Under the pieces are notes generated by a model. That model was not told the origin of the DNA, did not search any database, and saw nothing but the letters and a program-made list of their open reading frames with translations. Shown here piece after piece: positions 2,230 to 17,151 of a stretch of 64,000 bases of DNA; within the stretch, counting starts at the first letter, position 1, and each line of letters starts with the position of its first letter. Made by a program: the position numbers and the translations under genes. Location: contig NZ_CP084098.1 of the NCBI RefSeq assembly GCF_036345015.1, forward strand, positions 1,687,326 through 1,751,325, in the 5' to 3' direction. The DNA comes from Cyanobacterium sp. Dongsha4 (GTDB taxonomy: Bacteria > Cyanobacteriota > Cyanobacteriia > Cyanobacteriales > Cyanobacteriaceae).

Positions 2230-3666
2230 TTATCCTTTCGTTGCCCATTCTTTTGCCCAATGGAGATTTTCTTGGACTATTTTTAAAGTAGGTGCTTCTG
2301 AATATAAACGCAATAATGGTTCAGTACCACTGAAACGAATTAATAGCCAACTATTATCTTCAAGACGGTATTTATAGCCATCAATGGCAAGGCAATCGAT
2401 TACTTTCTTTCCCGCTATTTCTGTAAGGGGATTGTCTGAAAGTTTCTGTTGTAAGAGGTTTTTTTGTTCCAAATTTTTCAAAGGTAGATCGATGCGATCG
2501 TACTCTGAGGTAAAATTGACTTGTTGACGGAGGTTATTGTATAAATCACTAATATCTTTTCCTGATTCTACCACTGCTTCAAGGACATATAAAGCAGATA
2601 ACAAAGCATCCCTTTCGGGGATATGATTACTGTAGCCCACTCCTCCTGATTCTTCTCCTCCTACTAAAACTTGATTTTGTAACATTCTTTCTGCAATGTA
2701 TTTATAACCGATCGCAGTCTCGGAGATAGGAATATTCATAAACTGAGCTATTTTGGGTATTAAGTCCGATCCGCTCACCGTTTTGACAATTTCCCCCTTC
2801 ATTCCTTTTCTTTGGGCTAAATGCTCAATTAAAACGGGAATCAAAATTTGCGTACTACAGAAGTTTCCCTGTCCATCAACTGCGGCAATGCGATCGCAAT
2901 CTCCATCGAAGACTAAGCCCATTCGCAACCCATGAGGGTTATTTTTAGTATCTTCCTTGACTCTACGGAATAATTCAGAGATATAACGAGGTAAAGGTTC
3001 AGGCGCACCACCATCGAAAAGAGGATCTCGATTAGCGTTAATTTCTTCTATATCACAGCCTAATAAACGACGTAGCCCCCCAGAAGCCGAGCCGTGCATC
3101 ACGTCTACAAATATTTTTAATTTGCCAGATGCGATCGCATCTCTGATAATATTAACATTGACTTGAGAACTTAATTGTTGACAGTAGCTTTCCCAAGGAT
3201 TAAATAATGTAATACTACCTTCTTTATTGCTAGTAATAGCTTCATCCTTAGCGATTAAGGCTTCAATTTTCTGAGTTACATCTTCAGTGACAGAACCACC
3301 AAAAGCTCCTTTTACCTTTAAGCCTAAGTATTTTGCAGGATTATGACTAGCGGTTAAAACTAAAGCACCTAAAGCATTTTTTTCCTTCGCCGCCCAACTA
3401 AAAGCAGGAGTTGGAGCAAAACTATCTGATAACAACACATCAAAACCAGCTTCCTGTAAGCTATCGGCCGCCAACCTCGCAAAATCTTCCGCTAAAAAAC
3501 GGCGATCGAATCCTACAATCATTAAATTAGAATTGGGGTTATATTCCCGTAAAACATGAGCCGACAAAGGTGCTAATTTTGCCACTCGCTCAAAAGTAAA
3601 ATCGGCGGCAATAACTCCGCGCCAACCGTCTGTACCAAATTTGATCGGATTTACTGTAAAAGCCAT
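2230..3666 (-). CDS. Phosphoglucomutase/phosphomannomutase family protein
   Basis: A 478-residue alpha-D-phosphohexomutase that interconverts hexose 1- and 6-phosphates in the cytoplasm. All family landmarks are present: the phosphoserine loop TASHNP with Ser107, the Mg-binding loop DGDCDR at 254-259, the sugar-binding GEESGG at 337-342, and the phosphate-binding RFSGTEP at 444-450. Length is near the family norm. The start is the first ATG, just before FGTDGWRG. Substrate (glucose, mannose or glucosamine) is not decided by these motifs. Single gene, with repeats on both sides. Confidence 0.92.
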   Translation of the reverse strand: MAFTVNPIKFGTDGWRGVIAADFTFERVAKLAPLSAHVLREYNPNSNLMIVGFDRRFLAEDFARLAADSLQEAGFDVLLSDSFAPTPAFSWAAKEKNALGALVLTASHNPAKYLGLKVKGAFGGSVTEDVTQKIEALIAKDEAITSNKEGSITLFNPWESYCQQLSSQVNVNIIRDAIASGKLKIFVDVMHGSASGGLRRLLGCDIEEINANRDPLFDGGAPEPLPRYISELFRRVKEDTKNNPHGLRMGLVFDGDCDRIAAVDGQGNFCSTQILIPVLIEHLAQRKGMKGEIVKTVSGSDLIPKIAQFMNIPISETAIGYKYIAERMLQNQVLVGGEESGGVGYSNHIPERDALLSALYVLEAVVESGKDISDLYNNLRQQVNFTSEYDRIDLPLKNLEQKNLLQQKLSDNPLTEIAGKKVIDCLAIDGYKYRLEDNSWLLIRFSGTEPLLRLYSEAPTLKIVQENLHWAKEWATKG

Positions 3667-12182: not shown

Positions 12183-12543
12183 TTATATTTCTGGTGGCAT
12201 AGGGGGGATAATTTTTTCTAATTCAATAACAAGATTAGGAATATCAACAGTGATTACTTGCCAAATTCTTTTTTGATTAACTTTTTCATATTGATGGGCA
12301 ATAATATTCCTTTGCCCAATAATATCACTCCAAGGAATTTGCTTGTTTTCTTGCTGAAAATCATCGGATATTCGTCTTGCCGCTTCCCCTAATATTTCTA
12401 ATTGTCTCTCGATCGCACTTTGTAATAAGATAGATATTATTGCGGTATTCTTGCCATGAGGTATTTTCGGTAAAAAAAATAATTCTTTGACTCGATTGCC
12501 ACATATCCCAAAGAAAAGCATAATTTCTATTAATTTGACTCAT
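12183..12543 (-). pseudogene. HepT-type toxin gene, frameshifted
   Basis: The first frame (ATG 12541-12543) encodes the normal HepT start MSQINRNYAFLWDMWQSSQR through EYRNNIY. The family then needs LLQSAIERQLEILGEAARR, which is found in another frame from about 12432 downward, with the HEPN motif RNIIAHQY (Rx4HxY) near the end. One extra base or a two-base gain near 12432-12436 separates them. The toxin RNase or AMPylation target is thus probably not made at full length. It overlaps the mntA-like gene by 14 bases, the usual arrangement. Confidence 0.75.
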
Positions 12544-12841
12544 AAATAATTTTATGATTATTGATAATTTCGTAACGAATAAAAGGATTAGATAATGCTG
12601 ATTTTTCTACTAAGTCAACTTCCTGTTTGAATAGGTTTTTTAACTCATTTTTTAGTCTAACAATATCAAATAGACTCCACATAGCATTATCATCAAACGT
12701 GACTAAAAGATCAATATCACTATTCTCATCAAATTTATTAGTCAAAATTGAGCCAAATAAAGCTAATTCTTTAACTAACCATTTTTGACAAATTTTTTCT
12801 AACTTATCTTGAGGTATTTTATCAATGTTAATTAAACTCAT
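12530..12841 (-). CDS. MntA-type nucleotidyltransferase antitoxin
   Basis: A 103-residue minimal nucleotidyltransferase with the motif GSILTNKFDENSDIDLLV, that is GSx10DxD, and a third acidic residue in QEVDLVEK. MntA AMPylates and silences the HEPN toxin HepT. The partner immediately downstream is broken, so this antitoxin may be a leftover or may act on a shortened toxin. Opposite strand to the surrounding iron/metal genes. Confidence 0.85.
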   Translation of the reverse strand: MSLINIDKIPQDKLEKICQKWLVKELALFGSILTNKFDENSDIDLLVTFDDNAMWSLFDIVRLKNELKNLFKQEVDLVEKSALSNPFIRYEIINNHKIIYESN

Positions 12842-12852
12842 TATTTTTCATT

Positions 12853-13158
12853 TTAACTGGCAATATATTCTTTAATTTGGGCTAATACTTCCTTTTCTTT
12901 TGTTTGAGTGTGGAATAAATCCCAACGTAGTTGAAGGTTAAGCCAAAAGTCTGCTGATGTGCCGAAAAATTTGGCTAGGCGTAAAGCTGTACTAGGGCTA
13001 ATGCCCCGACGACAATTTACTATTTCATTTACTCTCTGGTAAGGCACTCGGATTTTATCCGCTAATTCTCTTTGTGATATACCCATAGGCTCTAAAAACT
13101 CTTTCAGTAGCATTTCTCCGGGATGGGTTGGTTGTCTATGAGTAGGAATGTTGATCAT
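12853..13158 (-). CDS. higA: HigA-type antitoxin (Xre family)
   Basis: A 101-residue HTH protein of the HigA/VapI group (HPGEMLLKEFLEPMGIS, then QRELADKIRVPYQRVNEIV). I chose ATG 13158 since the in-frame upstream alternative at 13179 is TTG. It binds and neutralises HigB and represses its own operon in characterised systems. It follows higB by 126 bases on the same strand, the order usual for higBA (toxin first). Confidence 0.87.
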   Translation of the reverse strand: MINIPTHRQPTHPGEMLLKEFLEPMGISQRELADKIRVPYQRVNEIVNCRRGISPSTALRLAKFFGTSADFWLNLQLRWDLFHTQTKEKEVLAQIKEYIAS

Positions 13159-13284
13159 GTTTATTCTATTCTCTATCAATATCTAAGATTATGGTTTTAT
13201 CTCGCAAAGGAGCAAAGACGCAAAGGGGTTAATCATCAATTATCGGTGTTGTCTAAGCAAGAGAAAGAAGTATGTAATTAATTC

Positions 13285-13578
13285 TTAGTGATAATCGATT
13301 ATTTCAACTTCCCAAATATGGTTATTTTGCCAAGAGAAACAGATACGGTATTGTTGATTAATTCTAATACTATATTGTCCATCTCGATCGCCCTTTAGGG
13401 GTTCAAATTGATTACCTGGCGGTATTTTTAATTCAGCTAAAGAAATTATAGAATCTAATTGATCTAATTTTCTTCTTGCTATTTGCCAAAGATTTTGAGG
13501 ACAAGTTTTTCGGGCTAATTTACTATTTTCCCCATAAAAAATATCCTCTGTGCCTTTATTTTTAAATGATTTAATCAT
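13285..13578 (-). CDS. higB: HigB/RelE-family toxin
   Basis: A 97-residue mRNA interferase of the HigB type: MIKSFKNKGTEDIFYG at the start, KIPPGNQFEPLKGDRDGQYSIRINQQYRICF in two pieces in the core, and a WEVEIIDYH end. It would cleave ribosome-bound mRNA unless held by HigA. Only 23 bases separate its start from the divergent ATPase start at 13602, so the two promoters must overlap if the ATPase has one here. Confidence 0.88.
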   Translation of the reverse strand: MIKSFKNKGTEDIFYGENSKLARKTCPQNLWQIARRKLDQLDSIISLAELKIPPGNQFEPLKGDRDGQYSIRINQQYRICFSWQNNHIWEVEIIDYH

Positions 13579-15854: not shown

Positions 15855-16013
15855 CGGCAAAAGGGGGACTCGAACCCCCACTCATTACTTAAGCGTGACA
15901 ATTTGGATAACGCGCTTCCCTACACTCAGTCGATTAAGTTTCGGTGCATCTGCAACCTTTGTCTGCAACTCCCTCACGTTTTAGGGATGCTCTGCCTTTT
16001 GAGCTATTCTGCC
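15855..16013 (-). tRNA. tRNA-like gene with about 80-nt internal insertion
   Basis: Read on the minus strand, GGCAGAA at the 5' end pairs with TTTTGCC at the 3' end. TA and a canonical D arm follow (GCTC, loop AAAAGGCA, GAGC), and a perfect T arm (GGGGG, TTCGAGT, CCCCC) stands just before the 3' acceptor strand. The total is 159 nt, roughly twice a tRNA. Between D and T arms there is no standard anticodon arm: a TCCCT/AGGGA hairpin has an eight-base loop without U33. Group I intron core elements are not visible. It could be a tRNA with an unusual intron, a disrupted tRNA, or a tRNA-mimic RNA. CCA is not encoded. Confidence 0.55.

Positions 16014-16041: not shown

Positions 16042-17151
<1,110 letters not shown>

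Follow-up and report, generated by a model that had tools for sequence, protein, structure and literature searches.

What is the gene at positions 15855-16013 of the window (the whole 64,000-nt stretch of Cyanobacterium sp. Dongsha4 DNA analysed here)? An initial annotation, made from the letters alone, had described a 159-nt tRNA-like gene with canonical acceptor, D and T arms, an eight-base loop without U33 at the anticodon position and a long insertion between the D and T arms. That description stands: the coordinates are exact, all three arms are present, hairpin enumeration agrees on the loop, and about 85 extra bases precede the T arm. What such an object is for is another matter, and a new small intron, a broken tRNA and a tRNA mimic had all been offered. 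On balance we think it probable that the gene belongs, as an intact copy in the chromosome, to a phage-associated family of non-coding RNAs built on a tRNA scaffold, and that it serves as adaptor or decoy, outside translation. The structure of the family RNA is well supported; its function as a tRNA mimic (adaptor or decoy) we infer.

A tRNA frame around an insert

On the minus strand, where RNA position i is window position 16014-i, the order of elements within 15855-16013 is GGCAGAA-UA-GCUC-AAAAGGCA-GAGC-A-UCCCU-AAAACGUG-AGGGA-(insert)-GGGGG-UUCGAGU-CCCCC-UUUUGCC-G (Table 1). The Rfam tRNA model matches this entire interval (38.5 bits, E 1.4e-4, gathering score 29) and leaves the insert unaligned; the acceptor, D and T arms are of standard size, as judged from that match and from the covarying stems. 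Single-sequence folding of the window copy recovers the same arms, with an energy modestly better than that of shuffled sequences (z -1.6). ARAGORN calls no tRNA at 15855-16013, hairpin enumeration of the window copy shows no standard 7-nt anticodon arm where the anticodon should be, and this copy does not encode its 3' CCA. A functional elongator tRNA has a 7-nt loop with U33 and an accessible anticodon: the window copy has the 8-nt AAAACGUG, and this loop is predicted to be paired with the core of the insert.

Table 1. Elements of the tRNA-like RNA in window coordinates (A4 is the alignment of relatives described in the text)
Element	Position	Strand	Basis and remarks
Whole tRNA-like RNA, 159 nt	15855..16013	(-)	Rfam tRNA 38.5 bits; phage-only covariance model 101.6 bits, E 7.3e-24
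Acceptor stem, 5' strand GGCAGAA	16007..16013	(-)	Pairs with 15856-15862; both-side changes in 6/7 pairs (A4)
D arm GCUC-AAAAGGCA-GAGC	15989..16004	(-)	Sequence, hairpin enumeration, A4
Anticodon-position hairpin UCCCU-AAAACGUG-AGGGA, 8-nt loop without U33	15970..15987	(-)	Both-side changes in 5/5 pairs (A4)
Anticodon-position loop AAAACGUG	15975..15982	(-)	AACG is the pseudoknot 5' strand, complementary to 15909-15912
Insert-closing helix, 5' strand GACAA	15959..15963	(-)	Pairs with 15897-15901; both-side changes in 6/6 helix pairs (A4)
Conserved core block 1 GGUUGCAGAUGCACCGAA	15940..15957	(-)	Near-invariant in relatives
Core hairpin ACUUA-AUCGAC-UGAGU	15924..15939	(-)	Phage copies GGCUU/GGGUC: letters differ, pairing kept
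Conserved core block 2 GUAGGGAAGCGCGUUAUCC	15905..15923	(-)	Near-invariant in relatives
Pseudoknot 3' strand CGUU	15909..15912	(-)	Pairs with AACG of the anticodon-position loop
Insert-closing helix, 3' strand UUGUC	15897..15901	(-)	A4
T arm GGGGG-UUCGAGU-CCCCC	15863..15879	(-)	Rfam tRNA match; A4
Acceptor stem, 3' strand UUUUGCC	15856..15862	(-)	A4 covariation; 15855 is a discriminator-like G

The family's two core blocks, GGUUGCRGAUGCACCGAA and GUAGGGAAGCGCGUU, are almost invariant in the alignment of relatives, and the window copy has them both, together with the tRNA frame, the anticodon-position hairpin and the closing helix that characterize the family. Two details of the insert had been singled out before. 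Both GTTGCAGA repeats exist, at window 15969-15962 and at 15956-15949, and a conserved block holds only the second. The AAGCG/CGCTT stem can be drawn on paper; it is not conserved among relatives, and it is probably spurious, since AAGCG is part of the invariant core GUAGGGAAGCGCGUU while CGCTT lies in a length-variable stretch that the relatives lack.

Relatives in phages, and a solitary copy in a cyanobacterium

Unannotated relatives occur in the Streptomyces phages Alone3, pSt2308, Comrade, Kela and Quantum, and in more than 25 viral contigs of IMG/VR (which may be fragments). In blastn against annotated phages, RNA positions 10-113 match Alone3, LuckySocke, GiJojo and pSt2308 at about 74-76% identity (E 5e-8 to 3e-5); the match to the Comrade group covers the core, and a viral member used as query brings E down to 1e-39. 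Relatives were gathered by core-pattern scans of IMG/VR followed by a mechanical search for the acceptor/D/T frame around the core, which yields 28 distinct full-length scaffold-bearing sequences, the window copy included; adding Kela, Quantum and one more locus (L202) made a working set of 31, and there are further copies beyond it. Members are 152 to 243 nt long. An exact 20-mer of the core, searched against genome contigs, gives one unrelated match without the RNA's other features, and matches of the RNA to plasmids are at chance level only.

These RNAs keep the company of tRNAs: ordinary tRNA genes lie within 2 kb of 28 of the 30 phage members, always on the same strand and often separated by 1-14 nt. 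In Kela and Quantum the RNA occupies an unannotated gap between tRNA-Arg and tRNA-Asp; in Alone3 it is likewise unannotated between tRNA genes. In LuckySocke (OR725497.1, 7782-7888) it has been annotated as part of gene 22, a hypothetical protein; in the sister phage Alone3 the corresponding place carries no gene, and the protein call may be spurious. A subtype that replaces ACCGAA by ACCGGA and has more nucleotides ahead of the core is seen at L197:2160-2291 (-), L192:2800-2944 (-) and L191:3567-3712 (+), the first of these contigs holding both subtypes.

Other RNAs at the viral loci deserve a separate word. Genes resembling tRNA-Asn(GUU), with about 70 nt inserted between the D and anticodon arms, stand in viral tRNA arrays at L177:8282-8421 (-) and L188:11710-11859 (+); their inserts contain GAGUUACUUC, as do the Y RNAs near the Alone3 Ro gene, and perhaps they are tRNA/Y-RNA fusions. 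Upstream of the Alone3 Ro-like gene (L146:5290-5920) a series of CGAUGCGYAG...UACUUC repeats looks like several Y RNAs, one of which reaches 33.8 bits with the Rfam YrlA model, below that model's cut-off.

The initial annotation had proposed aligning homologues in search of covariation, and the acceptor, anticodon-position, insert-closing and T helices do covary. In alignment A4 (ten short phage copies plus the window copy) standard pairs fill 96.2% of cells and 24 pairs change on both sides, 4 of the 5 T-stem pairs among them along with the pairs counted in Table 1; none of 500 shuffles reaches any of these measures, and sliding the partners drops pairing to 30-48%. A covariance model (R2) built from the phage copies only, so as to avoid circularity, finds the window copy at full length (1-155) with the score and E value of Table 1, while host tRNAs and T4 RNAs reach 38.6 bits at most: the resemblance is thus far beyond chance. 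(A technical note: with the first covariance model, R1, ordinary tRNAs scored up to about 43 bits, so that R1 alone cannot part weak members from tRNAs.)

Cyanobacteria tell a much shorter story. Among 386 cyanobacterial genomes the RNA is found only in the host (G000) and, as a decayed remnant, in its one congener (G001); the weak blastn matches in the others are pieces of 19-25 nt, such as T-arm matches. The congener's homologous locus lies beside the same P-type ATPase gene, its acceptor/D/anticodon half gone and its T stem lost, and the phage-only model gives the remnant 30 bits, all of which marks it as a broken copy. An 87-bp fragment of tgt is joined there to the insert (an intact tgt lies elsewhere in that genome). 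The rearrangement (L079:9228-9603 compared with window 3125-3620, 15966 and 16298-16384) joins pieces of the window's 3.1-3.6 kb region to the tgt fragment, and its junction, adjoining the decayed RNA, is an 18-bp overlap that holds a GCGATCGC (HIP1) palindrome. Another member of the bacterial family with the same ATPase (G008) has no RNA at that gene. Occurrence in the host and one decayed copy in a congener, among so many genomes, suggests that the window copy was probably acquired from a phage, and its loss of integrity in the sister species suggests that the RNA is dispensable in this genus.

In the window the tRNA-like gene follows tgt (queuine tRNA-ribosyltransferase, PF01702) by 28 nt on the same strand and converges with the P-type ATPase gene. 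No tRNA lies within 2 kb of it, and the locus shows no conspicuous promoter- or terminator-like site. Gene pairs of the HepT/nucleotidyltransferase and HigB/HTH-antitoxin types adjoin the ATPase gene (window 12183-13578); HepT-like ribonucleases act on tRNA. The host genome has at least 43 other tRNA genes, which serve the usual amino acids without the tRNA-like gene. Missing from the host's list is tRNA-Leu(UAA), which in cyanobacteria is usually split by a group I intron; its usual sequence is unlike the window RNA.

A loop probably tied to the core, and what it argues

In the family, the consensus of the anticodon-position loop, AAAACGGA, complements a CGUUUU that comes right after GGAAGCG in the core. 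Over 21 distinct loop/core combinations the complementary runs sum to 103; shuffling the loop letters gives 72.0 +/- 3.7 (0/2000), and swapping the cores between members 88.7 +/- 2.5 (0/20000). These counts are not strict probabilities, as family members share ancestry, and they come from a loop-restricted test in which the boundaries of a few divergent loops were set by hand. (An earlier scan with a 25-nt loop window gave p 0.03 for run length and 0.009 for pairs; it was too permissive, mis-parsed one member, and is superseded by the loop-restricted test.) Clear cases are divergent members that keep the pairing with other letters: L110 (AAACAGG/CCUGUUU), L156 (AAAUGC/GCAUUU) and L162 (UAAACG/CGUUUA). 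Pairing is weaker in L155, L163, L165 and L220, and in the window copy, whose loop AAAACGUG differs from the consensus, it comes to just 4 contiguous Watson-Crick pairs (AACG/CGUU). Alignment A4 speaks neither for nor against, because the four pseudoknot pairs hardly vary in it. From comparison of sequences, then, a pseudoknot that covaries in divergent members and would close off the "anticodon" is well supported.

The loop also reads ...ACGGA or ...ACGAA, like the CUACGGA and CUACGAA loops of tRNA-Arg(ACG) at the same set of loci, and the core with which it pairs reads CGU, the codon for that anticodon. (Descent from tRNA-Arg(ACG) itself was considered and finds no support: the loops are alike, yet acceptor and T sequences match many isotypes.) Does the RNA, then, carry its own codon, loop ACG pairing with core CGU(UU) in imitation of a codon-anticodon helix within a full tRNA frame? 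We regard this as very unlikely. Were it true, such an RNA might sit in one of the ribosome's tRNA sites with no mRNA present; ribosomes could thereby be stalled, sheltered or redirected in the course of phage infection.

If the frame is so complete, why should the gene not be a tRNA from which a new type of small intron is removed? An insert with a conserved, ribozyme-like core between two complete tRNA halves invites the suggestion, which the initial annotation had made and which now appears extremely improbable: 1) the hairpin is already complete 5' of the insert in all 31 parsed members, with an AAAACGRA-type loop that lacks U33 in nearly all, so that removing the insert would give no working anticodon; 2) the "anticodon" is nearly identical everywhere though the acceptor stems differ; 3) the insert is only about 85 nt long and gives no group I or group II match; 4) the host's tRNA set is already full. 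A variant in which the exons are rejoined at the anticodon loop was also discarded, since the 5' strand of the anticodon stem finds no partner in the 3' exon ahead of the T arm. Decay of a tRNA around random inserted sequence deserves as little credence: a single solitary copy and a broken remnant in the sister species are what one would expect of it, but phages of other bacteria share the conserved insert, and pairing is upheld by compensatory changes. For the family as a whole that reading is already refuted, and the "broken tRNA" of the initial annotation describes the congener's copy, not the window copy, in which every conserved motif and covarying helix is retained.

Two further proposals accept the RNA as a mimic and give it a particular adversary or partner. 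By imitating the tRNA-Arg(ACG) anticodon arm it might serve as a decoy against defence nucleases or toxins that cut tRNAs. That phage tRNAs can counteract anticodon nucleases is established, the family RNAs are placed in phage tRNA arrays, and their loop letters are those of positions 34-38 of the tRNA-Arg(ACG) loops; we nonetheless judge the proposal decidedly unlikely, because the predicted pseudoknot would tie up the ACG, L110 and L156 have other triplets yet keep the pairing (so that it is pairing that looks like the conserved feature), acceptor and T sequences resemble no single isotype, and a decoy has no need of an invariant core. Or the RNA might be a partner of Ro/Rsr (TROVE) proteins, a non-permuted relative of Y RNA whose insert tethers the Ro ring and whose tRNA-like part holds an exonuclease: a Ro-like protein is encoded in 12 of the 21 viral records of 90 kb or more that bear the RNA and in 1 of 8 controls, the five annotated Streptomyces phages are all positive, and YrlA, a Y RNA, is a known tRNA mimic (PMC8394870). 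Many of the positive records are, however, related Streptomyces phages; the other 9 large records show no Ro-like protein, and both cyanobacteria, host and congener, lack a TROVE protein. Nor is the RNA a neighbour of the Ro gene (80.6 kb as against 69-71 kb in Comrade, 122.6 kb as against 85-86 kb in Kela), the Rfam YrlA matches at these loci fall elsewhere than on the family RNAs, and the topology differs, the ends forming an acceptor stem here and a Ro-binding stem in YrlA. Partnership with Ro is possible, not established, and as an account of this RNA we consider it unlikely.

The reading that we prefer, a phage-associated mimic working as adaptor or decoy, takes up the tRNA-mimic option of the initial annotation and extends it to a family with a pseudoknotted anticodon loop. 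The tRNA frame and the placement in tRNA arrays imply that the RNA would be cut out of tRNA transcripts by the enzymes of tRNA maturation; it might then be stabilised as an L-shaped tRNA mimic. Its anticodon sequestered and U33 lacking, it should not be able to decode. The tRNA surface may be shown to a tRNA-binding factor while the core, whose invariance implies a specific partner, would hold that second one; its role would belong to infection, as adaptor or decoy, and not to translation.

The family among known RNAs

A lack of homologues, or a clear match to a known Rfam family, had been set down at the outset as what would speak against an unusual RNA. Homologues exist, and Rfam recognises only the generic tRNA scaffold: its tmRNA and group I models, which the initial annotation had recommended trying, do not match the window copy. 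At permissive thresholds neither that copy nor any of the members in L146, L147, L151 and L155 is matched by the YrlA, tmRNA or group I models of Rfam 15; elsewhere in the same loci, outside the family RNAs, there are YrlA-like, tmRNA-like and tRNA matches. The family has no Rfam entry, and no description of it was found in the open-access literature (a scope that leaves aside subscription papers and preprints). Streptomyces phages that are sequenced and can be cultured carry it, unannotated, in their tRNA arrays, which makes its role directly testable. It also bears on why large phages keep tRNA arrays, which evidently hold non-decoding RNAs that gene finders miss, and it records what is probably the passage of one such RNA into the chromosome of a cyanobacterium.

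How does it compare with what is already known? YrlA (RF02553) shares the D, T and acceptor-like arms and the possession of a second domain, and is found in the same phage loci near the Ro gene. The 5' and 3' ends of YrlA pair to make the Ro-binding stem (PMC8394870). Those of the family RNA form instead a covarying acceptor stem, and identity with YrlA is ruled out by the model, which gives no match, as well as by topology. T4 rnaC and rnaD (species 1 and 2), stable RNAs of 119-139 nt in a phage tRNA array whose role is not known (PMC3014915), are alike in kind and in placement but have no conserved core; nor do they qualify as members, rnaC scoring 14.9-16.2 bits, under several ordinary tRNAs, and rnaD not being listed by the model. 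With tmRNA (RF00023) the family has in common its tRNA-like ends, a pseudoknot and the want of a usable anticodon. tmRNA has no standard D arm and no anticodon-position hairpin, and it carries a reading frame; the family RNA, in contrast, has both D arm and hairpin and is not matched by the tmRNA model, and Comrade encodes a separate tmRNA. In pseudoknot I of the dicistrovirus intergenic IRES an anticodon-like loop pairs with a codon-like sequence of the same RNA, as the loop of the family RNA is predicted to do; we know of no sequence relation between the two, and the family RNA, which phages and bacteria carry, has its pairing within a complete tRNA frame. If the RNA did carry its own codon, it would be a cellular and phage analogue of that codon-anticodon mimicry. 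As matters stand it appears to be an undescribed structured family that joins the small set of tRNA mimics: tmRNA, the Y RNAs and the viral tRNA-like ends.
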